The translations under genes and the position numbers were made by a program. Source: a bacterium (GTDB lineage: Bacteria > UBA9089 > CG2-30-40-21 > SBAY01). From it: DNA of 19,065 nt. Shown piece by piece: positions 2,148 to 18,500 of the stretch. The notes beneath the pieces were generated by a model, which saw only the letters and a program-made list of their open reading frames with translations, had not been told where the DNA came from and made no database searches. The stretch is taken from NCBI GenBank assembly GCA_040757115.1, contig JBFLYA010000061.1, forward strand, positions 1 through 19,065, in the 5' to 3' direction. Within the stretch, counting starts at the first letter, position 1. Each line of letters begins with the position of its first letter.

Positions 2148-2978
2148 ATGATTATAACTAAAAAATTAACTAAACATTTCGGCAAAATAAAGGCAGTAGA
2201 AGGGCTTAATCTGCAGATTAATAAGGGTGAAATCTTTGGCTTGCTTGGACCAAATGGTGCAGGCAAAACCACTACTGTCCGTATGCTCAATACCTTGACG
2301 CTACCAACTTCAGGCTCTGCAGAGATTGATGGGCTGGATGTAGTAAAATCTGCTAATAAGGTTAAACGCTTGATTGGTGTCTGTCCGCAGGAGATGAACC
2401 TTGATAAAGAGCTTACAGCCAGGGAAAATTTGCGTATCCATGGACTGCTTTATCGTATGGAGGGTATTGAACAGAGGATAGATGAGCTGCTTTGCTGGTG
2501 TGGTTTGTCTGAAAGGGCAGATAATTTATTAAAGACATTTTCTGGCGGTATGCTCAGAAGATTGCTTGTTAGCCGCTCTATGATGCATCAGCCAAAGGTG
2601 CTGTTTCTGGATGAGCCTACAGTTGGGCTTGACCCGCAGGTTAGACGCCAGATCTGGGATATTATCCGCGAGCTGAATAGGCAGGGGGTCACCATCTTGC
2701 TTACTACCCATTACATTGAGGAGGCTGAATTGCTCTGTCAACGGGTAGGTATCCTCAATCATGGTAACTTGATTGCCTTAGGCAGCCCTGAAGAACTAAA
2801 GGAAAGGGTGGGCCATTTTGTAGTTGAGTCCCTTGATGATGGGGTGACTAATTATAGCTTGTTTGATAACCGAGAGGAGGCTTATAGTTTTGCGGAACAA
2901 AGGGTTGATGATGTCCGTATCCGCGAGGCAAACTTAGAGGATGTGTTTATTAAGCTCACGGGTGAGAGGATGAATTAG
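2148..2978 (+). CDS. ABC-2 type transporter ATP-binding protein
   Basis: A 276-residue ATPase of the DrrA/NodI class that powers ABC-2 membrane proteins. Visible motifs are Walker A GPNGAGKTT (near residue 35), Q-loop CPQE, signature FSGGMLRR, Walker B VLFLDEPTVGLDP and the H-loop TTHYIEEAE, in the right order. The C-terminal 60 residues are the usual short extension ending EDVFIKLTG. A TTG at 2139 would add three residues, but ATG at 2148 is the simpler start; neither has a strong Shine-Dalgarno. The beginning overlaps the fossil tail of the receptor fragment. The partner permease is the next plus-strand gene, 650 bases on, with a toxin-antitoxin pair inserted between on the other strand. 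The substrate is unknown. Its place ahead of btuFCD and cobN suggests a link to corrinoid or metal handling. Confidence 0.9.
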   Translation: MIITKKLTKHFGKIKAVEGLNLQINKGEIFGLLGPNGAGKTTTVRMLNTLTLPTSGSAEIDGLDVVKSANKVKRLIGVCPQEMNLDKELTARENLRIHGLLYRMEGIEQRIDELLCWCGLSERADNLLKTFSGGMLRRLLVSRSMMHQPKVLFLDEPTVGLDPQVRRQIWDIIRELNRQGVTILLTTHYIEEAELLCQRVGILNHGNLIALGSPEELKERVGHFVVESLDDGVTNYSLFDNREEAYSFAEQRVDDVRIREANLEDVFIKLTGERMN

Positions 2979-3274
2979 CCCAAAAACCTTTTAAGTCGTT
3001 TAAGGGCTGTTTTATAAACCTCAAGGTCTCTTCGGAACCCAACAGCAATTACTTCCACCAGAACCTTGTGTTTAAATATCTGGTAAACTATCCGATATTG
3101 CCCCACAGGGAGTTTGTATAACCCTTTCAGGGACTTTCGCAGAGGTTTGCCAAACTTATCTGGAGCAGTCGTAAGCTTGTAATTAATTTCTTTCAATATG
3201 CGACGCTGATTCTCCTTTGAGATATATTTGAAGTCTTCTTCAAGAACAAGGGTGTCAATTTCAACCTGATACAT
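2975..3274 (-). CDS. RelE/ParE-superfamily toxin
   Basis: A 99-residue basic protein of the size and pattern of RelE-type toxins. It has an N-terminal helix pair (EDFKYISKENQRRILKEIN), then KPLRKSLKGLYKLPVGQYRIVYQI, the typical Leu-rich and YRIVY strands, and a terminal strand VLVEVIAVGFR. RelE members cleave mRNA on the ribosome, while ParE members poison gyrase; sequence alone does not decide which. Its ATG directly follows the antitoxin stop with no gap, the usual arrangement for coupled synthesis. Its 3' end overlaps the ABC ATPase stop by 4 bases in convergent orientation. The pair splits an otherwise co-directional ABC-2 ATPase/permease couple, so it is probably a later insertion. Confidence 0.87.
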   Translation of the reverse strand: MYQVEIDTLVLEEDFKYISKENQRRILKEINYKLTTAPDKFGKPLRKSLKGLYKLPVGQYRIVYQIFKHKVLVEVIAVGFRRDLEVYKTALKRLKRFLG

Positions 3275-3550
3275 TTAACCAACCCTTTTCATGGCTTCTT
3301 CAAGAGGAATAGTTTTTCTATCTTTGCGGTTTAGCCTCTGTTGAGCAAGATTCTCAAGGGATAAATCTTCAAGTTCTTCGATTAACTCGGTCATTTGCTG
3401 ATAGCGATCGTAATCCAGGATAGCCATGATAGGCCTATTTCTCTTAGTGAGTACAACATTCTTTTCTTTGGCAGCATTTAAGATTTGGTTGAAATGTGTC
3501 CTTAATTCAGAGACACCAACTAAGGTAGTTTCTTCTTTTATAGTAAACAT
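3275..3550 (-). CDS. Phd/YefM-type antitoxin
   Basis: A 91-residue protein. The first 50 residues match the Phd/YefM fold: VGVSELRTHFNQILNAAKEKNVVLTKRNRPIMAILDYDRY, where the N-terminal part binds DNA and dimerises. The rest is acidic and helical (ELIEELEDLSLENLAQ), the part that usually wraps the toxin. It precedes the toxin in the same transcript. The ATG is preceded by AGGAGG (complement of 3559-3564) with a 7-nt spacer, and by a strong promoter at 3589-3617. Phd/YefM antitoxins normally autorepress, and a palindrome ATTGTACAAT covers the -10 here. Confidence 0.88.
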   Translation of the reverse strand: MFTIKEETTLVGVSELRTHFNQILNAAKEKNVVLTKRNRPIMAILDYDRYQQMTELIEELEDLSLENLAQQRLNRKDRKTIPLEEAMKRVG

Positions 3551-6371: not shown

Positions 6372-7151
6372 ATGCTCAAGATTGACAACATATCTGCTTC
6401 ATATCGTGAAATGCTAGTGCTTGAGGAAATTAGCTTTCAGGTAGAAGAGAGCGAATTCCTGGGCATTATCGGACCAAACGGTGCAGGCAAGACCACCCTG
6501 TTTAAGGTAATGAGTGGGGTAAAATCTCCCTTAACAGGGGAGGTTATGCTGGAGGGGAAGAATTTGCGCAGTTTATCTCGCAAGGAGATAGCCAGGATAA
6601 TGGCTGTTGTGCCGCAAAGTTCGTTTATTCCACCCCTATTTACGGTAGAGGATGTGGTTTTAATGGGTAGGTACCCACATCAAAAGAGTCGTTTTGTAAC
6701 TAACCAGGAGGATATAGCTGTGGCAGAGCAAGCCATGAGAGCGACCAATACTACAGAGTTTCGCTACAGACCAGTAAATGAGTTGAGCGGTGGAGAGAGG
6801 CAGGAGGTAATCATTGCCAGAGCATTGGCACAGGAACCTAAATTACTCCTGCTGGATGAACCAACTGCCAACCTCGATATAAAACATCAGATGAGGATAC
6901 TTAGGCTGGTAAAGGGATTGGTTAAAGAAAACAAAATTACAGCTATTATGATTATTCACGACCTGAATTTAGCCGCCAGATTCTGTGATAAACTTATTCT
7001 CCTGCATCATCACAGGATATGTGCCCAGGGGAAACCAGAGGATGTCCTTACCCCAGGGAATCTTAAAGAGGCATACGAAGTAGATGTAACGGTTAGCTAC
7101 AATGACTTTATCGGTGCCGTGCAGATGGTAGTGAGAGGAGGACGAATATGA
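6372..7151 (+). CDS. btuD: BtuD-like ABC importer ATPase
   Basis: A 259-residue ATPase of the FepC/BtuD class. It has Walker A GPNGAGKTT (residues 34-42), Q-loop VVPQSS, signature NELSGGERQ near 138, Walker B LLLLDEPTANLD and the switch His in MIIHDLN. The length agrees with the family. It drives the BtuC channel. A Shine-Dalgarno GAGGTGA just before the ATG overlaps the btuC stop. Its own stop overlaps the cobN start (ATGA), coupling importer and chelatase synthesis. Confidence 0.92.
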   Translation: MLKIDNISASYREMLVLEEISFQVEESEFLGIIGPNGAGKTTLFKVMSGVKSPLTGEVMLEGKNLRSLSRKEIARIMAVVPQSSFIPPLFTVEDVVLMGRYPHQKSRFVTNQEDIAVAEQAMRATNTTEFRYRPVNELSGGERQEVIIARALAQEPKLLLLDEPTANLDIKHQMRILRLVKGLVKENKITAIMIIHDLNLAARFCDKLILLHHHRICAQGKPEDVLTPGNLKEAYEVDVTVSYNDFIGAVQMVVRGGRI

Positions 7152-10100
7152 AAATACTAACCATTATGTGGCAAAGCTATCTAAATATGCTTGTTAAAGC
7201 AAGCAAACATCTGAATTTTGTGGAGCTTAAGGCTTATGCTTCCAGAATCCTCGAACAAGAGCCAGAGAGGATAGAGCGAGTGCTTGAGGAGGCGGCTGCA
7301 TCAGATATTATCTTGCTCTATCGCTCAACAGAAGGCTTCTGGGAAACGATTGAAGGCAGGATTAAGGAGTTAGGCAAAAGGCTGCCTATTGTCTGCGTGG
7401 GACACGACCCGTCCTACTGGATGCTCTCTACAATAAAACCAGAAATAGTAGCCAGGGTCTATTCCTACCTTGTCATTAATGGTGAGGAGAACTTCACCAA
7501 TATGTTGCGATATATTGTTAGAGAGGTGGGTGGGCTTGATATATCTGCCCCAGAGCCAAAGCCAGTTTCCTGGGAAGGGCTCTATCACCCGGACGCCTCA
7601 GGGATATTTAGCACCATTGATGACTACCTAACCTGGTACAACTCCCGTAACTCTAAACTCCAAACTCTAAACTCCAAACCCTCTACAGTGGGCATTCTTT
7701 TCTCCAGGCATTACTGGGTCAATGATAATCTGGAGATAGAGAATACCCTGATTCGTGAGTTGGAGCTCCTGGGATTAAATGTCATCCCGGCATTTTCTTA
7801 CCCCCTCAGGGATGAGCAGCTGGGTTGCAAGGGAAGTGGGGAGGTGGTCTGTGAGTATTTCTTGCGTGAGGATGGCAGCCCACGGATTGACGGGCTTATC
7901 AATCTTCAGACATTTCTCCTGAGTAACACAAGCGATAATCGGGATGGGGTGGAGATACTAAAAAGGCTGGATGTGCCAGTATTATCTCCAGTAACATCCT
8001 TTTATAAAACCATAAATGAATGGCGGGATGACCCTTCTGGTCTGGGAAGCTTTGTTGGTTGGTCAATTGCTCTGCCAGAGTTTGAAGGGGTGATTGAACC
8101 GCTGATTGTAGGTGCACTAAGCAATGAGCAGAACAAGATGCAACTGCGAATACCGATTGAGGAGCGATGCCGGAAAGTTGCCCGACGGATGGCTATGTGG
8201 ATGCGCTTGAGGCAGAAGCCCCCCCAGAATCGCAAGGTAGCTTTTATCCTGCACAACAACCCCTGTGCCTCAGTCGAGGCAACTGTAGGCGGCGGCGCTC
8301 ATCTGGATACCTTAGAGAGTGTAGCTTCTATAATGCAGCGTATGAGGGAGGCAGGCTATAGTGTTGAGCCGCCAGATGACGGCAAAGAGCTTATCACAAC
8401 CATTATGGAGCGCAAGGCTATTAGCGAGTTTCGCTGGACCACGGTGGATGAGATAGTCAAAAAAGGCGGGGTTTTGAAGCAGGTAACCAGAGAAGAATAC
8501 CAGGACTGGTTCGATACGCTTTCACCCAAAGTGAGGGAGCGAATGATTGATGCATGGGGGAATCCGCCTGGTGAAGAAAAGAACGGTGTGCCACCAGCAA
8601 TGGTCTATAACGGCAAGATAGTGGTTACAGGCGTGCACTATGGCAATACAGTGGTTTGTGTTCAACCCAAGCGGGGTTGTGCTGGTGCCAGATGTGATGG
8701 ACAGGTCTGTAAGATATTGCATGACCCGGATATCCCACCGCCGCATCAGTATCTGGCTACATATCGCTACCTTGAGTATGATTTTGGGGTAGATGTAATT
8801 GTGCATGTGGGCACGCACGGCAACTTAGAGTTTTTGCCTGGCAAAGGCACCGGATTATCTGGTGACTGCTATCCAGATATAGGTATCGGCGACCTGCCGC
8901 ATCTTTATATCTATAATGCTGACAACCCACCTGAAGGCACTATTGCCAAACGCAGAAGCTGTGCTACACTGGTTGACCATATGCAGACTGTAATGACACA
9001 GGGTGGGCTGTATGATGAGCTTGAGGAGTTAGGACGCTTCATTGGTGAATATGAGCAGGTAAAGGATGTTGACCCAGCACGAACACACGCACTCCAACAC
9101 CTGATTATGGAGACGATAGAAAAGACCAATCTCAGCAAGGAGATGAGGTTAAGCCAGGATGTAGGGTTTGACGAGCTGGTAAGGCGTGCTCATGGAGTGC
9201 TCTCCCGCATACGAAACACTCAGATACAGAATGGGATGCACATCTTTGGACAACTGCCTGAGGGAGAAATGCGGGTGGAATTTATCAACTCTATCCTGCG
9301 TTATGATGGAGGGGAGGAGCTTTCTCTACGAAGGGCAATAGCCGCCACCATAGGTATGAATTTATCTGATATGCTGGCAAATCAGGATAGGGTATGTCCG
9401 CATCATCAGAAGAGCTATGGAGAGTTGCTGGAGGAGGTGGATACAGCCTGTAAGGGATTTATTCGGCAGGTTATTGGTCTGCAGGACACAGACACCAGCC
9501 CGGTTGATAGTCTCCTGTGGACTAAACTGCGAGAGCGGGTGCTTGATCTGAACCGCAGAATCGATCAATCACAGGAGATAGCCTCACTCCTGCACGGATT
9601 TAGCGCTGGGTATATCCCGCCAGGCCCCTCGGGCTTGATTAGCCGGGGCAGAGACGACATCCTGCCTACAGGCAGAAACTTCTACTCCCTTGACCCGCAT
9701 CGGATTCCGACAAAGGCTGCCTGGCAGGTGGGGCAGAAATTAGCTGATGCGCTGCTTGAAAAGCATAAGCAAGAACAAGGTAGACTTCCGGAAAATGTAG
9801 CTATCTACTGGCAGTGCACCGATATCATGTGGGCGGACGGCGAAGGGATGGCACAGATTATGTCCCTTTTAGGTGTGCGGCCTCTCTGGCATCCAAATGG
9901 CAGGGTGAAAGGCTTTGAGGTGATTCCCATTTTAGAGCTTGAAAGACCAAGGATTGATATTACCATCCGTGTTTCGGGTATCACCCGAGATAACTTCCCA
10001 AACTGCATTGAGCTGCTGGATGAGGCTATCCAGGTAGTAGCCCATCTGGATGAGGTTGAGGAGCTGAATTTTGTGCGAAAACACGCCTTAGCTCAAATTA

Positions 10101-10978
10101 ACCAGAATAGCGCCGGGAATTCCTCTAAAGAGGCCTGGCGAGATGCTACCCTGCGTATCTTTGCATCAAAACCCGGCACCTATCAGGCAGGAACACAACT
10201 GGCGGTCTATGCCTCTGCCTGGAAAGAGGAAAAGGATTTGAGTGATATCTTTGTCTATTGGAACGGATACGCCTATGGCAAGGGGATATTTGGCGAAGCA
10301 AAACATAAACAGTTGACTGATAGCCTCAAAACAGTTGACATAACCTACAACAAGGTGGTCTCTGATGAATACGACCTCTTTGGCTGTTGTTGCTATTTTG
10401 GCACGCATGGTGGGATGACTGCGGCTGCCCGGCATATCTCGGGTAAAGAGGTCAAGACTTACTACGGCGATACCCGTGAGCCAGAGCATATTGAGGTGCG
10501 GGATATGGCAGATGAGATCAGGCGTGTAGTGCGAACAAAACTGCTTAACCCAAAATGGATTGAAGGGATGAAACAACACGGATACAAAGGTGCCGGTGAC
10601 ATCTCTAAACGCATTGGTAGGGTTTATGGTTGGGAGGCAACTACTCAGGAGGTAGATGACTGGATATTCGATGAGATTGCCAGCACCTTTGTGTTAGATG
10701 AGGAGAACAGGAAATTTTTCGAGGAGCATAATCCCTGGGCATTAGAGGAGATCGGGCGCAGACTCCTTGAGGCACAGGGACGTGGGCTGTGGAATGCTGA
10801 CCCAGAGGTGCTGGAAAGATTGAAAAATGCCCATCTTGAATGTGAGGGCTGGATTGAAGAGAAGATGGGTGATATCGAGGGTGATTTTCAAGGTGGGGCA
10901 ATAGATATCCTGACTGCAGAGGATGTGTCTGACTGGAAAGCGAAGATGAAGGAGATTAGAGAAAAGATTGCACCATAA
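7148..10978 (+). CDS. cobN: CobN/ChlH-type cobaltochelatase large subunit
   Basis: At 1276 residues it has the normal size of CobN/ChlH, the subunit that holds the tetrapyrrole and metal. Strong signatures are HVGTHGNLEFLPGKGTGL (from residue 553), YNADNPPEGTIAKRR, PTGRNFYSLDPHRIPTKAAW, and CCCYFGTHGGMTAAARH (GTHGG from 1085) followed by YYGDTREPEH. Four Cys at 504, 511, 516 and 521 (QPKRGCAGARCDG region) form a cluster typical of the archaeal-like branch and could hold a metal or Fe-S centre. The start has GAGAGGAGG just upstream and overlaps btuD. CobN normally works with small and medium AAA+ partners; the next genes supply ChlI and ChlD types, not CobS and CobT. Residues 167-178 are encoded by a repeat (7648-7675) that looks like invading spacer DNA. 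A role in removing or swapping metal, rather than inserting cobalt, cannot be excluded. Confidence 0.93.
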   Translation: MKILTIMWQSYLNMLVKASKHLNFVELKAYASRILEQEPERIERVLEEAAASDIILLYRSTEGFWETIEGRIKELGKRLPIVCVGHDPSYWMLSTIKPEIVARVYSYLVINGEENFTNMLRYIVREVGGLDISAPEPKPVSWEGLYHPDASGIFSTIDDYLTWYNSRNSKLQTLNSKPSTVGILFSRHYWVNDNLEIENTLIRELELLGLNVIPAFSYPLRDEQLGCKGSGEVVCEYFLREDGSPRIDGLINLQTFLLSNTSDNRDGVEILKRLDVPVLSPVTSFYKTINEWRDDPSGLGSFVGWSIALPEFEGVIEPLIVGALSNEQNKMQLRIPIEERCRKVARRMAMWMRLRQKPPQNRKVAFILHNNPCASVEATVGGGAHLDTLESVASIMQRMREAGYSVEPPDDGKELITTIMERKAISEFRWTTVDEIVKKGGVLKQVTREEYQDWFDTLSPKVRERMIDAWGNPPGEEKNGVPPAMVYNGKIVVTGVHYGNTVVCVQPKRGCAGARCDGQVCKILHDPDIPPPHQYLATYRYLEYDFGVDVIVHVGTHGNLEFLPGKGTGLSGDCYPDIGIGDLPHLYIYNADNPPEGTIAKRRSCATLVDHMQTVMTQGGLYDELEELGRFIGEYEQVKDVDPARTHALQHLIMETIEKTNLSKEMRLSQDVGFDELVRRAHGVLSRIRNTQIQNGMHIFGQLPEGEMRVEFINSILRYDGGEELSLRRAIAATIGMNLSDMLANQDRVCPHHQKSYGELLEEVDTACKGFIRQVIGLQDTDTSPVDSLLWTKLRERVLDLNRRIDQSQEIASLLHGFSAGYIPPGPSGLISRGRDDILPTGRNFYSLDPHRIPTKAAWQVGQKLADALLEKHKQEQGRLPENVAIYWQCTDIMWADGEGMAQIMSLLGVRPLWHPNGRVKGFEVIPILELERPRIDITIRVSGITRDNFPNCIELLDEAIQVVAHLDEVEELNFVRKHALAQINQNSAGNSSKEAWRDATLRIFASKPGTYQAGTQLAVYASAWKEEKDLSDIFVYWNGYAYGKGIFGEAKHKQLTDSLKTVDITYNKVVSDEYDLFGCCCYFGTHGGMTAAARHISGKEVKTYYGDTREPEHIEVRDMADEIRRVVRTKLLNPKWIEGMKQHGYKGAGDISKRIGRVYGWEATTQEVDDWIFDEIASTFVLDEENRKFFEEHNPWALEEIGRRLLEAQGRGLWNADPEVLERLKNAHLECEGWIEEKMGDIEGDFQGGAIDILTAEDVSDWKAKMKEIREKIAP
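7648..7675 (+). repeat. 14-bp tandem repeat inside cobN
   Basis: Two 14-base units, TAACTCTAAACTCC and AAACTCTAAACTCC, lie head to tail, with a third degenerate unit on each side. They encode a low-complexity stretch (NSKLQTLNSKP) between well-conserved parts of CobN. The composition is like the short CT/AA repeats of the spacers rather than like the surrounding coding sequence, and the frame is kept. Confidence 0.6.
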
Positions 10979-10997
10979 AGATTCAGGAGGATAAAGA

Positions 10998-12113
10998 ATG
11001 AGTTGTCAAAGCATCATATACCCCTTTACTGCCATTGTGGGACAGGAGCGGATGAAGAAGGCCCTATTGTTAAATGCGATAAATCCAAACCTTTCAGGGG
11101 TGCTTATCCGAGGAGAAAAAGGTACGGCTAAATCAACTGCTGCCAGAGCTCTGGCCAATCTTTTGCCAGAGATTGAGGTGGTTGCTAACTGCCCATTTAG
11201 TTGTCATCCCCAACGCAAGGAATTGATGTGTGAGGAATGCCGACACCGCATAGCAAAGGGAGAAGATGTCCCAACAACCCGCAGGAAGATGCGGGTGGTC
11301 AACCTGCCGGTAGGGGCAACCGAGGATAGGGTAGTGGGAACACTCGACATTGAACATGCCTTAAAAACAGGTGAGAAGAGGTTTGAACCAGGTGTGTTAG
11401 CTGATGCCCATCGAGCCATACTCTATGTGGATGAGGTGAACCTATTGGATGACCATATCGTTGATGTCTTGCTTGATTCTGCGGCTATGGGTGTCAATAC
11501 CATTGAGCGAGAAGGGGTCTCTTTTGCACATCCGGCTCATTTTATCCTGATTGGCACGATGAATCCGGAAGAGGGGGAGCTTCGACCTCAATTACTCGAC
11601 AGATTTGGGCTTTGTGTAAATATTGAGGGCATTGACGACCCTAAGGCCAGGGTAGAGGTCATCAAAAGGCGCCAGGGCTTTGAGGAAAACCCAGCCCGGT
11701 TCGTGGCTGAATGGAATGCTGAAGAAAGGGCCTTAAGCCAGTTGATTGTTAATGCCCAGTGGCTTCTTAAGGATGTGGCTCTATCTGATGATATGCTGGA
11801 GCTGATTGCCAAAATAGCAGTAGATATGCAGGTGGACGGACATCGAGCAGATATCTTTATGATGAAGACCGCACGAACAATTGCCGCCTACCATCAACGG
11901 CTTAAGGTAGTAGAAGAGGATGTTCAGGAGGCCGCAGAGCTTGTCCTGCCACATCGCATGCGAAAAAAACCCTTTCAGGATAGGAAGATGGAACAAGAGC
12001 AGCTTGAGCAGACCATTCAAGAGCACAAGAAACAAAAAAATCCCCAGCCGACAAACAAAAGTCCACAAAATGAAGACCAGAATCAAGGTCAGGAAAATAA
12101 GGAGGATGATTGA
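10998..12113 (+). CDS. chlI: ChlI/BchI-type AAA+ chelatase small subunit, N-terminal half of a split ChlID
   Basis: A 371-residue AAA+ ATPase. The start has AGGAGG 7 bases upstream. [10 protein letters not shown] opens the domain; Walker A is GEKGTAKST (39-47), Walker [11 protein letters not shown] (141-150, D145/E146), and the sensor region [20 protein letters not shown]. Cys65, 69, 78 and 81 (NCPFSCHP...MCEEC) form a four-Cys site seen in the archaeal-like subgroup. After about residue 325 the sequence becomes a Gln/Asn/Pro-rich, then acidic linker ending NKEDD. In this family such a linker normally continues into the VWA domain in the same chain. Here it stops and the VWA part follows in the +1 frame. 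The product alone would serve as the small subunit; with frame change it becomes the medium subunit. Confidence 0.9.
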
Positions 12114-12114
12114 C
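12099..12114 (+). other. Candidate +1 recoding or re-initiation site between chlI and chlD
   Basis: The end of the chlI frame reads AAG GAG GAT GAT TGA C. A full Shine-Dalgarno (AAGGAGG, 12099-12105) lies 5 bases before an in-frame TGA followed by C. This is the layout of the RF2 (prfB) +1 frameshift signal: internal Shine-Dalgarno, short spacer, UGA C. The downstream VWA frame is exactly +1. The only ATG for that frame here (12106) abuts the Shine-Dalgarno with no spacing, too close for normal initiation. Against it, a peptidyl-tRNA on GAT re-pairs poorly with ATT after a +1 slip. A plain mutation or sequence error is also possible. Confidence 0.45.
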
Positions 12115-12996
12115 CATCAGTCTGATGCAAGCACTCAAACCTCTTTCGAACCAGGTGAACCCTTTCGGGTAAAAAGGTTATCTCTGGCAAAAGAGCAGGA
12201 AATAAAGGATGGTGCTGGCAGAAGAAGTAAGACTGTCTCCTCTGATAAAAGAGGCAGATATACCAGGAGTGCCTTATCAACAAAGGAAAGGATTAATGAT
12301 TTAGCCTTTGATGCTACCTTTCGGGCGGCAGCTCCACATCAGATAAAGAGAAGTCAGGAGTTAGAAATCAAGAGTCAAGGATTAATTATCAAGACGCAAG
12401 ATATGCGGAAAAAGGTAAGAGAAAAGAAGATTGGCAATCTGATGCTCTTTGTAGTTGATTCTTCTGGCTCAATGGGAGCAAATCAAAGGATGGTTGCGGC
12501 TAAAGGGGCGATCCTATCCCTGCTTATTGATGCTTATGAAAAAAGGGATAGGGTGGGTATGATCGCCTTTAAGGGTGAGCGGGCAGAGATATTACTTCCT
12601 CCCACCAATAGTCTGGAATTGGCTTCTAAACAACTTTCTGAATTACCTACAGGCGGAAAGACACCACTCTCATCAGGGCTTCAGGTTTGCCTTGAGCTTA
12701 TCCAGAAGGAATTAAGAAAGAATCAACAACTGGCAATACTGATTGTGCTCATTACTGATGGGAGGGCTAATGTCAGCCTCCTAAAAGGTGCTAATCCGTT
12801 TGAGGAAGCCAAAGCTATAGCCCTTCAAATAAAAGAGATAGGCGCAAAATCTATAGTTATTGATACAGAATCAGGCTTTATTCGATTTAAAAAAACAGAA
12901 GCAATAGCCCAGTGCTTAGGTGGAAGATGCTTTTCTATGGAAGATATAAAGGCAGAGACTATCTATGAGTTAGTAAAACAAAGGGGTGAAACATAA
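12106..12996 (+). CDS. chlD: ChlD-type VWA domain protein (medium subunit, C-terminal half)
   Basis: The frame is open from 11920, but before 12106 it is an out-of-frame reading of the chlI linker giving an implausible basic peptide. Recognisable ChlD sequence begins right after: [64 protein letters not shown]. The VWA metal site is complete: D118, S120, S122 (DSSGS), Thr in GGKTPLSSG and Asp in [10 protein letters not shown] subunits of Mg/Co chelatases bind the AAA+ ring and dock it on the large subunit. It lacks the AAA-like half that medium subunits need, which the preceding gene supplies, so the functional form is probably a fusion of about 665 residues. Residues 82-102 are three heptads coded by a 21-bp repeat. 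The stop overlaps a following ATG (TAATG). Confidence 0.82.
12349..12411 (+). repeat. Three 21-bp units coding heptads in the VWA gene
   Basis: The units start at 12349, 12370 and 12391 and encode [14 protein letters not shown] and KTQDMRK. The third blends into normal family sequence ([13 protein letters not shown]). The first one or two units look like an in-frame expansion just before the VWA domain. Confidence 0.55.
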
Positions 12997-13153: not shown

Positions 13154-13244
13154 TTTGACAGCCAAAATTTAGCACGGACTTCGTCAATTCGTGCAATTCG
13201 TATTCTTCCCCCAAATGACTGACGCATTACTGGGTTGAAAAAAT

Positions 13245-13280
13245 TTTAGTTGACAAACAATGAGTGATATGCTATAATAG
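13245..13280 (+). promoter_or_regulatory. Consensus sigma-70 promoter of the btuB riboswitch
   Basis: TTGACA (13250-13255), a 17-base spacer and TATAAT (13273-13278) form a perfect consensus promoter. The riboswitch P1 helix begins 13 bases downstream. A promoter this strong suits control by RNA attenuation, with B12 level as the brake. Confidence 0.9.
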
Positions 13281-13290
13281 AAAATAGTCA

Positions 13291-13460
13291 GATAGGTAGA
13301 GGAAGTCCTTGTGAGATTCAAGGCACTGCCCCGCAACGGTAATATCATCTAAAAAATGATGAGTCCGGTCGATTACCTATCTTTGAAAGTACTTTCGCGG
13401 GAAGGGAATAACTAAAGAAAAACTTATTACCCAATCTTCTTGGCGAAGGTTGGGTTTTTT
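13291..13460 (+). ncRNA. Cobalamin riboswitch with terminator (copy A, upstream of btuB)
   Basis: Closing helix P1 is GATAGGTA (13291-13298) with TACCTATC (13374-13381). Inside are a CCTTG/CAAGG hairpin, the B12-box-like core GGCACTGCCCCGCAACGG (13322-13339), a hairpin ATCAT/ATGAT and the conserved GAGTCCGGTC before P1 closes. Downstream, a palindrome GAAAGTACTTTC (13385-13396) is followed by GCGGG, which can pair with CCCGC of the core as in the kissing interaction of this class. GGGAATAA (13404-13411) can pair with TTATTACCC (13424-13432) as an anti-terminator that overlaps the terminator stem. With B12 bound, GCGGG is held, the anti-terminator is disfavoured and transcription stops. The element lies 360 bases before btuB. 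Confidence 0.93.
13429..13460 (+). terminator. Riboswitch terminator (copy A)
   Basis: An 11-bp stem (13429-13439 with 13445-13455, one G-T pair), a 5-nt loop and six T. It is the OFF state of the riboswitch above. Confidence 0.9.
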
Positions 13461-13545
13461 GTTGGATAAACGGTCATAAGCGTGCGATTCACAGAAATAG
13501 CTTTTAGTTCGAGTGTCTGACATTATTTTTAGGAGAAACCGTCAT
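13461..13545 (+). repeat. Leader segment shared with the cbiX-cbiC upstream region
   Basis: Bases from the terminator to the Shine-Dalgarno AGGAGA (13531-13536) are almost identical to 237-312. An ATG at 13544 follows that Shine-Dalgarno and opens 41 codons, but these run straight into the palindromes at 13580-13669 and look non-natural. The original gene of this leader was probably displaced here. Confidence 0.7.
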
Positions 13546-13821: not shown

Positions 13822-16038
13822 ATGAAGAAGTTTTGGTTAATGATTGGATTAGGATTAGGTTTAGGATTAGGTTTGACATTTGCTTCAAAGGAGATTATCC
13901 TTGCTCAAGAGCCTTTTGAACTTGAAGAGGTGGTTGTTACCGCCACAAAGGGCGAGAAAAGGATAGAGGATGTGCCGGTTAGCACATCAGTCGTAACGCA
14001 AAAAGAGATAGAAGAGAAAAAGGCAGTCTTTGTCGATGAAGCCCTCAAATATGAGCCGGGGGTCTATCTTAAGCGGGCTAAATTTGCAGATATGGGTAAT
14101 ACAGTTACCCTGCGTGGGTTTAGTAATCAGAATAGAACATTAGTCCTCCTTGATGGACAATCATTAAATGATGCTTATACTGGCAATGTGGAATGGTCTG
14201 CCCTACCTCTGGAAAATGTTGAAAGGATAGAAATAGTTGAGGGTCCAGTCTCAAGCCTGTATGGTGGTAATGCTATGGGTGGGGTGATAAATATTATTAC
14301 GAAAAAGCCAGATGTTGAAAGTCTGCTCTTTAAGAGTTCAGCCTCTACTAACAATACCTATGTCCATTCCTTAGGCTATAGTAATAAATTCAATCGGTTT
14401 TCTCTCCGATTCAATCTGGAGAAGAAGTCAAGTGAGGGAGAAAGAACGGATTTTGTGGTTAAATCTGTCTCACCCGGCACCGGAGGCACACGGGTGACCG
14501 GCTGGCAAAAGACAAAGAATGCTAAAGGCATTGATGCTTACTTGATTGGAGATACCGGGAAAAATTGCTGGGAACAAAACCAGTACAGCGGCAAATTTAC
14601 CTACTCGATAAACCCAATATCTAATCTATACCTTGCTTTAAACTATGGTCAACGGGAATACGGTTATTCGGACCCACAGAGCTATCTTAAGGATAGTAAT
14701 GGCAAGCCAGTTGATAACGGTAAGATTGATCTGGGTGTAGGCACAATGACTATCTATCCCAAAGATTTCTTAAGCAGCTGGGGAAGATACAATAGTAATC
14801 TTTATCATCTCGGCTACGATACCCTGCTTGGTCTGATTAATATTAAGTCCAAGATAAGCTTAAACAAGAGGCAAAGTTTCTATATTGTCCCACAGAGCGG
14901 GGCAACTGCTCAAGGAGGTCCAGGCAAATTTAATGATACTGCCCCCAGTCAGGATATTCAGGCAGAGATACAGACAGATATCCCATTCCTTCAAGATAAT
15001 CTCTTAAGTATTGGTTTAAACTATCGCTTAGATAAAACAATAATCAAAGAATATGATCTTATCGACTGGAAGAATGAAGATTCAAAAAAGACAACTAATC
15101 CGACAGTTGAAATTAAGGGGAAGGCAAAAATATCCGCTGTTTATGCTCAGACTGAGCTGGAAGTAATCAACAACTTAAAAGCTTTTCTTGGTGCCCGGTA
15201 TGATACCTGGAAGAATTACGATGGCTCAAACCGTAATGGCACAAACTTGACTACCTATACGGCTATGGATAAGAAATCTATCTCCCCCAAGATTGGTTTT
15301 CTTTATAAGCCAGGATTTGAAAAGGGAATTTATCATCTGGATAACATTCGTGCATCCTGGGGTAAAGCTTTTAAACCACCAACTATCTATGAATTATATA
15401 GAACCTGCTTGATGGGAAAAACTACCTATGAAAGCAACCCTAACCTTATTCCAGAAACCAGCCAGTCATGGGAAGTAGGTTTGGACCAGAGGCTAAACAA
15501 AAAGGTAACTATTTCTGTTACCTATTTTCAAAGCAAGATAAAAGACCTTATCTACAGTAAGATTATTTCTTCAACGATTAAGCGAAAGGAGAATGCCGGA
15601 GAAGGAAAAATCGCTGGATTTGAGCTCGATACTAAGGTAAATCTTACCGATTCTCTATCTGCCTTTGGAAATTATACTCGGCAAGATACCGAAATGTTAG
15701 AAAATCCAGCTGAACCAAGTACCATTGGCAAAAATTTTGTGTTTGTTCCAGAGAAGATGTTTAATCTTGGACTTATCTTTTCTAAAAAAGCTGTAAGCTC
15801 CTCATTGCTCTGGCATTGGGTAGATAAGGTTTATCTTAATTCAGACAACTCTGATACCGAGGAAGAGGTCTATGGTGCGTATGATAAAATCAATACGGTG
15901 GATGCCAAACTGGGTTATAACCTTAAGGAGAATTTGAACCTGTCTTTAGCAGTGGATAATCTTTTTGATAAGAGATACTATCAGCACTATAAATCCCCAG
16001 GTCGAACATTTACTGTGGAGGCGAAGTGGAAATACTAA
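13822..16038 (+). CDS. btuB: BtuB-like TonB-dependent outer-membrane receptor
   Basis: A 738-residue receptor. It has a signal peptide (MKKFW then a Gly-Leu repeat, residues 1 to about 22-29), the TonB box EEVVVTATK (35-43), a plug domain with VDEALKYEPGVYLKR, LRGFSNQNRTLVLLDGQ and the IEIVEGPVSSLYGGNAMGGV motif, then a 22-strand-type barrel. The end, VDNLFDKRYYQHYKSPGR to KWKY, has the C-terminal aromatic residue wanted for outer-membrane assembly. The Shine-Dalgarno AAGGAGG sits 9 bases before the ATG. The cobalamin riboswitch upstream points to a corrinoid ligand. The signal peptide is coded by TTAGGA/TTAGGT hexamers. It has a broken paralogue at 1390-2146 and is followed by a tonB-like stub. 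Confidence 0.93.
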   Translation: MKKFWLMIGLGLGLGLGLTFASKEIILAQEPFELEEVVVTATKGEKRIEDVPVSTSVVTQKEIEEKKAVFVDEALKYEPGVYLKRAKFADMGNTVTLRGFSNQNRTLVLLDGQSLNDAYTGNVEWSALPLENVERIEIVEGPVSSLYGGNAMGGVINIITKKPDVESLLFKSSASTNNTYVHSLGYSNKFNRFSLRFNLEKKSSEGERTDFVVKSVSPGTGGTRVTGWQKTKNAKGIDAYLIGDTGKNCWEQNQYSGKFTYSINPISNLYLALNYGQREYGYSDPQSYLKDSNGKPVDNGKIDLGVGTMTIYPKDFLSSWGRYNSNLYHLGYDTLLGLINIKSKISLNKRQSFYIVPQSGATAQGGPGKFNDTAPSQDIQAEIQTDIPFLQDNLLSIGLNYRLDKTIIKEYDLIDWKNEDSKKTTNPTVEIKGKAKISAVYAQTELEVINNLKAFLGARYDTWKNYDGSNRNGTNLTTYTAMDKKSISPKIGFLYKPGFEKGIYHLDNIRASWGKAFKPPTIYELYRTCLMGKTTYESNPNLIPETSQSWEVGLDQRLNKKVTISVTYFQSKIKDLIYSKIISSTIKRKENAGEGKIAGFELDTKVNLTDSLSAFGNYTRQDTEMLENPAEPSTIGKNFVFVPEKMFNLGLIFSKKAVSSSLLWHWVDKVYLNSDNSDTEEEVYGAYDKINTVDAKLGYNLKENLNLSLAVDNLFDKRYYQHYKSPGRTFTVEAKWKY
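13847..13874 (+). repeat. TTAGGW hexamer repeat in the btuB signal peptide
   Basis: Four to five consecutive units of TTAGGA or TTAGGT code the GLGLGLGL run of the signal-peptide core. Gain or loss of a unit would change the core by two residues without a frameshift. Confidence 0.7.
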
Positions 16039-16086: not shown

Positions 16087-16233
16087 ATGGAAGAAAAAGG
16101 ATTGATAAAGGCTATTTGCTTATCGTTCCTTATTCATACAGGGGTAGCTGGCGCGATTATGCTTTTGGGAGTAGATAAATGGCATAGACAAACACCTCTC
16201 TCTACTATCGAGAGTTTCTCTGGTAGAGATTAA
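16087..16233 (+). pseudogene. Truncated TonB-like protein (N-terminal anchor only)
   Basis: The 48-codon frame from ATG 16087 has a short charged start (MEEKG), then one hydrophobic segment AICLSFLIHTGVAGAIMLLG and a short tail ending SFSGRD. The S-x-x-x-H spacing in SFLIH is the same as the functional Ser16/His20 pair in the E. coli TonB anchor, through which ExbB/ExbD act. Everything after the anchor is missing: the Pro-rich spacer and the C-terminal domain that touches the TonB box. A receptor-tonB order is common, and the stub lies 48 bases after btuB. It could be a small membrane protein in its own right, but a truncated tonB is the simplest reading. Confidence 0.6.
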
Positions 16234-16307
16234 CCTGCAATCGGCAAGTGAATACTGAACAATCAGCTAATTCGTGTAATGTGACTTGTCAACAAAAATT
16301 TAAAAAA

Positions 16308-16345
16308 TTTAGTTGACAAACAATAAGCGATATGCTATGATAGAA
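16308..16345 (+). promoter_or_regulatory. Sigma-70 promoter of riboswitch copy B
   Basis: TTGACA (16313-16318), 17 bases, TATGAT (16336-16341). It differs from copy A at three positions: two in the spacer and one in the -10, where copy A has the consensus TATAAT. It should be somewhat weaker. Confidence 0.85.
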
Positions 16346-16353
16346 AATAGTCA

Positions 16354-16523
16354 GATAGGTAGAGGAAGTCCTTGTGAGATTCAAGGCACTGCCCCGCAAC
16401 GGTAATATCATCTAAAAAATGATGAGTCCGGTCGATTACCTATCTTTGAAAGTACTTTCGCGGGAAGGGAATAACTAAAGAAAAACTTATTACCCAATCT
16501 TCTTGGCGAAGGTTGGGTTTTTT
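16354..16523 (+). ncRNA. Cobalamin riboswitch with terminator (copy B, upstream of the DUF2162-ExbB-DUF2149 genes)
   Basis: The sequence is identical base for base to copy A throughout aptamer, anti-terminator and terminator. P1 is 16354-16361 with 16437-16444, the B12-box core is 16385-16402, and the terminator is 16492-16523. Only 12 bases separate the T-tract from the next start codon, since the leader present in the other copies is missing. It places a membrane-protein cluster of poorly known function under B12 repression. Confidence 0.93.
16492..16523 (+). terminator. Riboswitch terminator (copy B)
   Basis: Same 11-bp stem and T-tract as at 13429-13460. The next gene's ATG is at 16536, so read-through RNA keeps the hairpin right beside the ribosome landing site. 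Confidence 0.9.
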
Positions 16524-16535
16524 GTTGGATAAAAA

Positions 16536-17216
16536 ATGGGATTAGATGTTATCTTATGGACAATAGGAACACTTTTTACCCTGGGTATATTCAGCGTGAA
16601 AGTCGGTTTTGGACTTGGTTTTGGCAGAATGGGATGGAAGGTTATTGGAATGACACTTGCAGGCTATGTAGCCCTCTTTGTGCTAATAGCGATGTTTTCA
16701 GAACACTTGATTAACCTGCTTGAGCCAGTCTTGAGAAAAGGTCCATATCTTCATCTGTTTATAGCCACAGGAATGGTTGTCTGGGGATTTTTTATCCTCA
16801 GAAATCCTCACGAATGTAAAACTGAAGGTGAAATGCTTAAGCCTTCGCTTTTGCTTATTATTCCCTGTCCTATTTGCCTTATGGCAATAACCTTTTCCAT
16901 CTGGGCGGCTTTAAGCGTTATCAAATTGCCGGCTATGCTGGTGGGATTTGGAATGGGGATGACATTTGCCATCTTCTCCTTTCTGCTTCTTATGGTCACA
17001 CGCAAGAGAAAGTCAGCTATATCTCTTGGTTTGAGTATGATGGGAATTGGTCTTTATTTCATTGCGGCTTTATTTCTTCCGGCAAAGATTGAAGAGGCGC
17101 GGGGAATATATAACTCCTTTGTCAATGAGGGGAGTGGGCTGGCTTTAAATAATCAAATTGGTGTCTTTGTTGTTCTTTTGGGAGCTATCTTAACTGGTTT
17201 TTGTCAGAAAAGGTAA
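16536..17216 (+). CDS. DUF2162-type polytopic membrane protein (putative transporter)
   Basis: A 226-residue protein with about six or seven hydrophobic segments. It begins LWTIGTLFTLGIFSVKVGFGLGFG, has a Cys pair in LLIIPCPICLMAITFSIWAA in mid-chain, and ends ...LLGAILTGFCQKR. I recognise it as the DUF2162 predicted-transporter family by overall pattern, not by a search. In other genomes this family is found beside MotA/TolQ/ExbB and DUF2149 genes and CobN-like chelatases. Function is not established; the CPIC pair could bind a metal or be redox-active. The ATG lies right after the riboswitch terminator with no good Shine-Dalgarno. The stop codon lies inside a copy of the GTAACCGTTCAGG repeat, so the very end of the protein may have been altered. 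Confidence 0.75.
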   Translation: MGLDVILWTIGTLFTLGIFSVKVGFGLGFGRMGWKVIGMTLAGYVALFVLIAMFSEHLINLLEPVLRKGPYLHLFIATGMVVWGFFILRNPHECKTEGEMLKPSLLLIIPCPICLMAITFSIWAALSVIKLPAMLVGFGMGMTFAIFSFLLLMVTRKRKSAISLGLSMMGIGLYFIAALFLPAKIEEARGIYNSFVNEGSGLALNNQIGVFVVLLGAILTGFCQKR

Positions 17217-17466
17217 CCGTTCAGGTATAGGTAAAAAGATAGTAATTATTTAGCCACAGATTAACACAGATTAGCACAGATAAAGACAGACTTTTGGGTA
17301 AATCAGGATTAGTAATGAGGTGGTATGAGAATAATGTTTCTTTTATCCCAAACCCCGAAATCAAAATCCCGATTTTTATACTTCTATTAATTTAAAAAGC
17401 AATTACTTGCGTATATTTAAAAAAATCCGTGTTTTATCTGTGTTCATCAGTGGCTGAACAGTTACC
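17213..17466. repeat. 254-bp composite inverted-repeat element
   Basis: Outer arms are GTAACCGTTCAGG (17213-17225) and GCTGAACAGTTAC (17453-17465). Inner arms are GCCACAGATTAACACAGAT (17253-17271) and, inverted, ATCTGTGTTCATCAGTGGC (17436-17454). The centre has no gene. The outer 13-mer recurs at 114-126 and 178-190. The element sits between two co-directional genes and includes the stop codon of the first. Confidence 0.75.
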
Positions 17467-17485
17467 AGAAAAGGAGACTGGATAA

Positions 17486-18064
17486 ATGAATATCCTCGCT
17501 GGACTTGAAACATTTCTATATGTTATCTCATCTGCCCTCTTTTACCCGGTAATAGCCGGGCTTGTTCTGCTCACCTTCTGGATAGTTATCTTTTTGGGCG
17601 GCTTTTTGCGGGAGTATATTGAAAGAAGGCAAGGACATTATCTTGCTGTCGAAAGGTATAAAACGGTGATATCATCTCCAGCGGTTGACACCAACCTTGA
17701 CCTTCATCTGGAAAGACTTCTTCAGAAAGCCGAGCTTGACCTTATCAAATCGCTTGACCAGATAAGGTTTGTCATCAGGGTTGGTCCGGCACTTGGGTTG
17801 ATGGGGACATTAATACCAATGGGCATAGCCCTTTCTGCCCTTGCCCAGGGTGATATGCCAAAGATGGCAGGAAGTATGGTTACTGCCTTTACCACTGTTG
17901 TGGTTGGATTGGCGTGTAGTGTTATTGCCTATATCCTATCTTTGATTAAAGAGAAATGGGTAAGGGCAGATATGCGGGAAATGGAATATTTAACGGAGTT
18001 AATGCTCCGAAATGCAAAATTGGAGGGAGCTAATGAAATTTTTGAAGAGACACAGACGATTTGA
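17486..18064 (+). CDS. MotA/TolQ/ExbB-family proton-channel protein
   Basis: A 192-residue membrane protein. There is one hydrophobic segment near residues 9-40, a cytoplasmic loop (FLREYIERRQGHYLAVERYK), then the family's paired helices with RVGPALGLMGTLIPMGIALSAL and GSMVTAFTTVVVGLACSVIAYILSL. That GP-LGLMGT...AFxTTxxGL pattern is the ExbB/TolQ/MotA core around the ion pathway. An AGGAGA precedes the ATG. It overlaps the next gene, a small one-helix protein of the ExbD position and topology, so the two probably form an ion-driven motor complex. A DUF2162 gene precedes it across a repeat element. It could energise BtuB, which lacks an intact tonB in this window, or drive another step near CobN. 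Confidence 0.87.
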   Translation: MNILAGLETFLYVISSALFYPVIAGLVLLTFWIVIFLGGFLREYIERRQGHYLAVERYKTVISSPAVDTNLDLHLERLLQKAELDLIKSLDQIRFVIRVGPALGLMGTLIPMGIALSALAQGDMPKMAGSMVTAFTTVVVGLACSVIAYILSLIKEKWVRADMREMEYLTELMLRNAKLEGANEIFEETQTI

Positions 18065-18371
18065 AAAATACGATGAGCCACTTGAAGATCCAATCTCAGG
18101 GGTAGCAAATCTGTTTGATGCCAGTGTGGTCTTTATTGTCAGTATGATGATTGCCCTTTTTATGGCTTATAATATGCTCGATTTATTAGACCCAAAATCA
18201 GAGGTGACCATCACAAAAAAGACCGCGGATGGAAAAATTGAGGTGATTACCAAAAAGGGCAAAGAGATAAAGGTGCAAAAGGTAACTGATAAACGATTAA
18301 GCGGCGAAGGCATAAGACTTGGCACTGCCTATCAGCTTAAGGACGGGAGGGTGATTTATGTGCCGGAGTAA
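18033..18371 (+). CDS. DUF2149-type single-helix membrane protein
   Basis: A 112-residue protein. The N-terminus is short and charged, then DEPLEDPISGVANLFDASVV leads into one transmembrane helix (VVFIVSMMIALFMAYNMLDLL). A lysine-rich extracytoplasmic part with GKIEVITKKGKEI and EGIRLGTAYQLKDGRVIYVPE follows. This is the DUF2149 pattern. An earlier ATG (18012) is possible, but 18033 has GGAGGGAG just upstream and starts at the normal family position. It overlaps the ExbB-like gene by 32 bases. The topology matches ExbD/TolR; an Asp (LFDASVV) lies at the helix entrance, as in ExbD, where an Asp carries protons. Function in this family is unproven. Confidence 0.8.
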   Translation: MKFLKRHRRFEKYDEPLEDPISGVANLFDASVVFIVSMMIALFMAYNMLDLLDPKSEVTITKKTADGKIEVITKKGKEIKVQKVTDKRLSGEGIRLGTAYQLKDGRVIYVPE

Positions 18372-18401
18372 AACAGGTAACTATATTCCCCTTTTTACAC
18401 T

Positions 18402-18500
18402 TTAATGATGGAGTTTAGGATGTTTTGCTCGTTGATCAATATAAAGGAAAACGAGCCCAAAAATAATCATCACTATTCCGCCTATAATTACAGCATACAT
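18402..18500 (-). CDS. Small single-helix membrane protein (32 aa)
   Basis: The minus strand reads MYAVIIGGIVMIIFGLVFLY, then a charged tail ending KLHH. It has a perfect-looking Shine-Dalgarno (AAGGAGA) 6 bases before the ATG, formed by the last codons of the upstream small gene. One hydrophobic helix, no recognised family. It is convergent with the DUF2149 gene. Confidence 0.6.
   Translation of the reverse strand: MYAVIIGGIVMIIFGLVFLYIDQRAKHPKLHH

Follow-up and report, generated by a model that had tools for sequence, protein, structure and literature searches.

A B12-riboswitch-controlled DUF2162-ExbB-DUF2149 trio as a probable accessory module of exported CobN-type chelatases

Gene content of the window and the B12 leader of the trio

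The window, that is, the whole stretch of DNA analysed here, comprises 19,065 nucleotides of contig JBFLYA010000061.1 and carries a plus-strand cobalamin gene region. This region consists of a CbiX-CbiC fusion gene, ABC genes, btuF-, btuC- and btuD-like genes, a cytosolic-type cobN, ChlI- and ChlD-like genes, btuB, and a trio encoding DUF2162, an ExbB-type protein and DUF2149 (Table 1). The initial annotation had recorded a riboswitch directly ahead of the trio and btuB, btuFCD and cobN as its neighbours; profile matches bear out the riboswitch and all three trio proteins, the neighbours are present, and ChlI/ChlD-like genes are found as well. The CobN of the window is cytosolic by the hydrophobicity of its ends (N 0.87, C 0.24) and also by tree, and differs from the type that usually partners the trio. 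The region places an early-insertion chelatase (CbiX, 317-1306) alongside the late-insertion CobN with its ChlI/ChlD-like genes (7148-12996).

The leader of the trio is a duplicate of the btuB leader, with 98.3% identity over 232 bp (blastn), a feature missed by the initial annotation. Its aptamer passes the curated cut-off of RF01482 (50 bits) and ties this copy of the trio to corrinoids, in agreement with the earlier assignment. Upstream, the TTGACA-17-TATGAT element is promoter-like by its consensus match. The terminator hairpin ends 17 bases ahead of the DUF2162 start codon and is the probable expression platform of the riboswitch. As promoter-like site, aptamer and terminator are all contained in the leader, the trio appears to be switched as a transcription unit of its own. 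Ahead of the CbiX-CbiC fusion gene (193-313) lies a third and incomplete copy of the B12 leader, which comprises the downstream part only, with 96.7% identity to 13418-13537.

The 48-codon open reading frame between btuB and the leader occupies the slot filled by TonB genes in relatives L023, L024 and L025. A Pfam search with it gave no match, and by its place and a weak N-terminal resemblance it is a possible tonB fragment. The TonB-like stub of the initial annotation is retained as an open reading frame in the tonB slot, its identity being read from these two features only. The cluster in the window contains no intact TonB gene, only this possible stub.

Table 1 Features of the trio and its surroundings in the window
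Feature	Position	Strand	Evidence
Cytosolic CobN	7148..10978	+	NF004646, 2035.8 bits; without signal or C-terminal anchor
AdoCbl riboswitch before btuB	13276..13414	+	RF01482, 52.8 bits
BtuB-like TonB-dependent receptor	13822..16038	+	PF00593, PF07715; TIGR01779 178.5 bits, under the TIGR01779 cut-off
48-codon open reading frame, possible tonB stub in the tonB slot of relatives	16087..16233	+	Position, weak alignment
Leader duplicate comprising promoter-like site, aptamer and terminator	16302..16533	+	Copy of btuB leader 13239-13470
Promoter-like site TTGACA-17-TATGAT, TG ahead of second hexamer	16313..16341	+	Consensus scan, 11/12 matches
AdoCbl (cobalamin) riboswitch of the trio	16339..16477	+	Rfam RF01482, 51.6 bits, E 4.3e-7
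Intrinsic-terminator hairpin, 11 pairs and T-run	16492..16518	+	Fold MFE -18.4, z -2.57
DUF2162 polytopic membrane protein	16536..17216	+	PF09930, 178.6 bits
ExbB-type ion channel protein	17486..18064	+	PF01618, 44.1 bits (cut-off 22.9)
DUF2149	18033..18371	+	PF09919, 111.3 bits
Vestigial start of exported CobN (btuS) gene, MCRSKTGNYIPLFTL-stop	18358..18405	+	Sequence; start MCRSRW in L053

Features of the trio proteins

DUF2162 carries an IPCPIC motif, and alignments of 43 relatives show Lys22 and the cysteines of the CPxC to be invariant and a His to be near-invariant. Its predicted structure (model pLDDT 87.5) gave no convincing match in Foldseek and VIA-align searches, and a search for relatives on viral contigs found none. 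The ExbB-type protein, aligned with canonical ExbB, keeps the channel motifs GPxLGLxGTL and AFTT. DUF2149 consists of a single transmembrane helix, whose start bears an NLFD that is invariant in the alignment, followed by a small domain.

Like the TonB-ExbB-ExbD system, the trio combines an ExbB-family channel with a one-helix protein bearing an Asp at the start of its membrane helix. In contrast to that system, DUF2149 falls outside the ExbD family and has an outer domain predicted to be all-beta (model pLDDT 71), and no intact TonB adjoins the trio. An hhalign comparison of DUF2149 with six ExbD sequences aligned only the ANLFD/APLID stretch, without significance; in Pfam the protein matches the DUF2149 family only and not ExbD, and Foldseek and VIA-align searches with the predicted fold returned nothing standing out. 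Membership of DUF2149 in the ExbD family is not supported by these sequence comparisons.

All three reading frames of the trio are intact, and codon changes relative to related loci fall mainly on third positions, which fits purifying selection. A lone intact DUF2149 gene, with neither ExbB nor CobN as a neighbour, was observed in the same genome (G000:C69:2328-2600, L160) and in G005:C55 (L161 7752-8090); the gene order is the same in these two species of the genus, and the two proteins are 98% identical.

Conservation of the module and its TonB-related neighbours

A scan of GTDB genomes with the DUF2149 profile returned 579 relatives, and the survey covered the best 80; as these are the loci closest to the window, the survey numbers describe that part of the family. 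Among the best 80 of 579, ExbB adjoins DUF2149 in all 73 testable loci. A direct CobN-family neighbour is present in 30 of 31 bacterial and 12 of 19 archaeal loci with enough flanking sequence, and such a gene is found somewhere in 65 of the 80. For 14 of the remaining 15 genomes the search was extended to the entire genome, and each of the 14 contains a CobN-family gene; the co-occurrence with CobN, which the initial annotation had put forward as a check, holds in this set. Most archaeal genomes of the CobN-less loci include the exported type with hydrophobic ends, and the archaeal genome of L132 (G024) has a CobN of the cytosolic type only. Across 19 genomes of the phylum, a small sample of related genomes, DUF2149 tracks the exported CobN (each in 7 genomes, 6 of them shared, p 0.002) more closely than it does the cytosolic CobN (4 of 7 shared, p 0.09).

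Bacterial clusters frequently include a TonB-dependent receptor (25 of 32 loci, best 80 of 579), and in L023, L024, L025, L078, L079 and L080 a TonB gene without ExbD precedes the trio. These arrangements, and the published depiction of HmuU and HmuV of the Bacteroidota heme operon as energisers of HmuR (PMC12583661), speak for ExbB-DUF2149 replacing ExbB-ExbD and, by way of a TonB protein, energising BtuB in the outer membrane, a role that the initial annotation had entertained and that could still apply in the relatives with such a TonB gene. Complete exbB-exbD-tonB sets are nevertheless found next to the trio itself in T. lovleyi, L072, L076 and L107, and exbB-exbD adjoins it at the end of the contig in L097. 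The genome of the window has a complete set as well, on contig C49, whereas the trio in the window is adjoined by the stub only. The initial annotation had named a complete set elsewhere in the genome, serving btuB, as evidence against its proposal. Such a set is present, although its neighbours are a Fur-type regulator (identified by eye) and another receptor, and it may not be the set that serves btuB. Archaea lack such an outer membrane, and the trio is conserved in them with no TonB-dependent receptor, TonB or ExbD beside it (0 of 19 archaeal loci, best 80 of 579). The archaeal loci and the full exbB-exbD-tonB sets together weaken the BtuB-energiser reading, which we regard as unlikely.

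Exported CobN as the partner of the trio

Directly at the end of DUF2149, we observed a 15-codon remnant of an exported cobN gene, missed by the initial annotation. It overlaps the end of DUF2149 by 14 nt, as in relatives, and this overlap recurs in many loci. The window has no adjoining intact exported CobN gene, only the remnant. Two intact exported CobN genes are located elsewhere in the genome, on contigs C270 and C14, besides the cytosolic CobN; the C270 protein begins with MCRSRW, matching the MCRSK of the remnant. In L024, L025 and L027, from the same small phylum, DUF2149 is directly followed by a CobN relative of 1335-1380 residues with a signal-like N terminus. A fourth relative, L054, has an exported CobN after DUF2149 at the end of a short contig.

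Of the trio-adjacent CobN proteins with both termini within the available sequence, nearly all are hydrophobic at the N and at the C end, as judged by a simple hydrophobicity test for export and anchoring that five cytosolic CobN references fail. In a CobN tree rooted on the cytosolic forms, all exported forms are separate from the cytosolic ones; the proteins of the window's own lineage, T. lovleyi and Nitrospirota form a single clade (support 0.998), with HmuS elsewhere. The solved structure closest to the C270 protein is HmuS (9d26, 498 bits), compared to 427 bits for CobN. The exported group of this lineage keeps the catalytic His (His538) and has Asp and Gln where HmuS has His1209 and Glu1212. 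As these two residues are not kept, a substrate other than heme is likely, and the riboswitch suggests a cobalt-corrinoid. The initial proposal of the trio as a partner of CobN-like systems stands as far as general companionship is concerned (65 of 80 loci, 14 of 14 genomes), with the exported BtuS/HmuS type in place of the adjoining cytosolic CobN.

The remnant also bears on the question whether the trio is the leftover of a broken cluster that lost tonB and the exported cobN and has no present role. The tonB-like stub, the 15-codon remnant, the duplicated leader and the scattering of module genes over several contigs would fit such a history. This is, on the other hand, difficult to reconcile with three intact frames and third-position-biased change, with a leader complete in promoter-like site, aptamer and terminator, and with two intact exported CobN genes persisting in the genome, and we consider it very improbable.

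Comparison with known systems and metal settings

Descriptions exist of the hmu operon, of BtuS-type proteins and of the plasmid cluster in T. lovleyi. The Bacteroidota operon hmuYRSTUV, encoding the dechelatase HmuS, the ExbB-type HmuU and the DUF2149 protein HmuV, shares with the window the order of an ExbB-type gene followed by DUF2149, and this pair sits by an exported CobN-type protein and a TonB-dependent receptor (PMC10434189, PMC12583661). The window differs in having a B12 riboswitch instead of iron control and DUF2162 instead of the unrelated HmuT (hhalign probability 0.6%, with an HmuT profile of three sequences only), and in the location of the exported CobN gene outside the cluster, whereas hmuS lies inside the hmu operon. 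Archaea have no complete hmu operons (PMC12583661), and CobN operons are said not to encode Hmu homologs (PMC13227078). BtuS, a third CobN type (Rodionov 2003 as cited in PMC6460266), fits the trio-linked exported CobN, of which this genome has two. BtuS is the chelatase-like protein, however, while the trio would be its accessory set, with the link to B12 provided here by the riboswitch.

Similar in content is the corrinoid cluster on plasmid pSZ77 (pGLOV01) of Trichlorobacter (Geobacter) lovleyi SZ, which runs in order from two tandem cobalamin riboswitches through a TonB-dependent receptor, DUF2162, ExbB and DUF2149 to an exported CobN directly behind DUF2149. Its DUF2149 is 90% identical to that of the window. 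In contrast to the window, the plasmid cluster contains the exported CobN gene and also an exbB-exbD-tonB set. The authors of the plasmid study stated that the role of CobN was unknown and that CobS/CobT were missing (PMC3403914).

The survey of riboswitches in relatives, proposed with the initial annotation, gave hits in some loci and none in others. In T. lovleyi, where there are two in tandem, and in L072, L074, L075, L076, L077, L079 and L080, the cluster's receptor gene is preceded by a cobalamin riboswitch; one is also located upstream in L090, L093, L096 and L134. The leaders of L025 (the L082 contig) and L026 are homologous to that of the window (blastn) and under the Rfam cut-off. No cobalamin riboswitch was found in L083, L085-L089, L098, L107 and L120, with little upstream sequence in L085 and L086. 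NikR adjoins the module in L087 (3963), L089 (3183) and Azospirillum. In Runella, hyp genes surround the module, and a NicO/DsbD-like protein fills the DUF2162 slot of this nickel-linked cluster. The exported CobN and ExbB-DUF2149 lie together beside NikR, HupE-like or hyp genes in L087, L089, L065 and L066, an arrangement suggestive of a nickel variant. Taken with the iron-linked hmu operons and the B12-riboswitch clusters, these loci indicate one module across iron, nickel and cobalt settings.

A further alternative is that the trio is an ion-driven transporter, with DUF2162 as a permease for the released metal or ring, powered by ExbB-DUF2149 and working in series with the exported chelatase instead of acting on it. 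The polytopic nature of DUF2162 with its invariant CPxC and Lys and near-invariant His, the NicO/DsbD-like protein in its slot in Runella, and the NikR neighbour in L087 and L089 would all suit a permease. DUF2162 is, however, found in only 20 of 43 bacterial loci (best 80 of 579), about half having ExbB-DUF2149 without it, and HmuT, part of the same module in Bacteroidota, has no detectable relation to it. We therefore assign this alternative a low probability, somewhat above that of the BtuB energiser.

Proposed role of the trio

On balance, we favour a reading in which exported CobN-type chelatases of the BtuS/HmuS class have an accessory module in the inner membrane, and the trio is a copy of this module under the control of a B12 riboswitch; we hold this reading to be somewhat probable. 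The presence of the same genes in archaea, which have no outer membrane, makes the exported chelatase, and not an outer-membrane B12 receptor, the probable client of the module. At low AdoCbl, the riboswitch would permit expression of BtuB and the trio, together with the exported chelatase in relatives, presumably for obtaining cobalt or corrinoid from outside. The exported chelatase gene appears to have left the cluster of the window and would be supplied in trans by the C270 and C14 copies. Several findings count against this accessory role: no exported chelatase adjoins the trio in the window, a lone DUF2149 occurs in this genome and its sister species, DUF2149 gave no significant ExbD profile match and is predicted to have an all-beta outer domain, DUF2162 gave no convincing fold match, and L132 has only a cytosolic-type CobN.

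Mechanistically, ExbB and DUF2149 may pair as channel and anchor, in the manner of ExbB/ExbD or MotA/MotB, and most likely use an ion gradient to drive the exported chelatase, for example its turnover or product release. CobN and ChlH are driven by ATP via AAA+ partners, and ExbB-DUF2149 would stand in for the cytosolic AAA+ ATPase (ChlI/ChlD, CobS/CobT) where ATP is absent. Purified HmuS depends on NADH instead of ATP and comes to a halt after 1-2 turnovers (PMC12583661); as it removes iron without the trio, the trio is not required for the chemistry as such. From this ATP-free, quickly halting activity, the ExbB motifs and the DUF2149 helix, we infer ion-gradient energy for the exported chelatase; the direction of metal transfer is likewise a matter of interpretation. 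The CPxC helix of DUF2162 would give the released metal, or else reducing equivalents, passage through the membrane.

More tentatively, we postulate that ExbB-DUF2149 is an ion-gradient motor for extracytoplasmic metallo-tetrapyrrole chelatases, an ATP-free counterpart of ChlI/ChlD and CobS/CobT. It would be used in parallel for heme iron in Bacteroidota, for nickel in the NikR- or hyp-linked clusters and for cobalt or corrinoids under the B12 riboswitch, with the outer membrane not involved in archaea. This generalisation is possible, though short of probable. In the open-licence literature, we found no paper uniting the archaeal, nickel and B12 cases as one module, nor one assigning ExbB-DUF2149 to a chelatase. 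The reading bears on what HmuT, HmuU and HmuV do for Bacteroidota of gut and mouth with heme operons: both the archaeal loci and those clusters that have their own ExbB-ExbD-TonB speak for HmuU/HmuV serving the exported chelatase instead of the receptor. If true, it would offer a reason for the early halt of purified HmuS, at one or two turnovers, and one common module would link the acquisition of heme, nickel and B12. As T. lovleyi SZ is a cultured relative with the B12 version and tandem riboswitches, the proposal is directly testable.

Further features of the window

A repeat of about 126 bp at positions 1-126 recurs with 94-100% identity at or near several contig ends in this genome and the sister species (L053, L013, L052 and L026). 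An end-to-end join of C270 with the window was rejected, since the 126 bp common to both are this repeat and its orientation gives no join. A second TonB-dependent receptor is represented by a C-terminal fragment of 211 codons from a GTG (1450-2085). Furthermore, two small minus-strand genes resembling a RelE/RelB toxin-antitoxin pair (2975-3550) are flanked by ABC transporter genes on both sides; the pair is also present in the sister species (L059 1746-2321).
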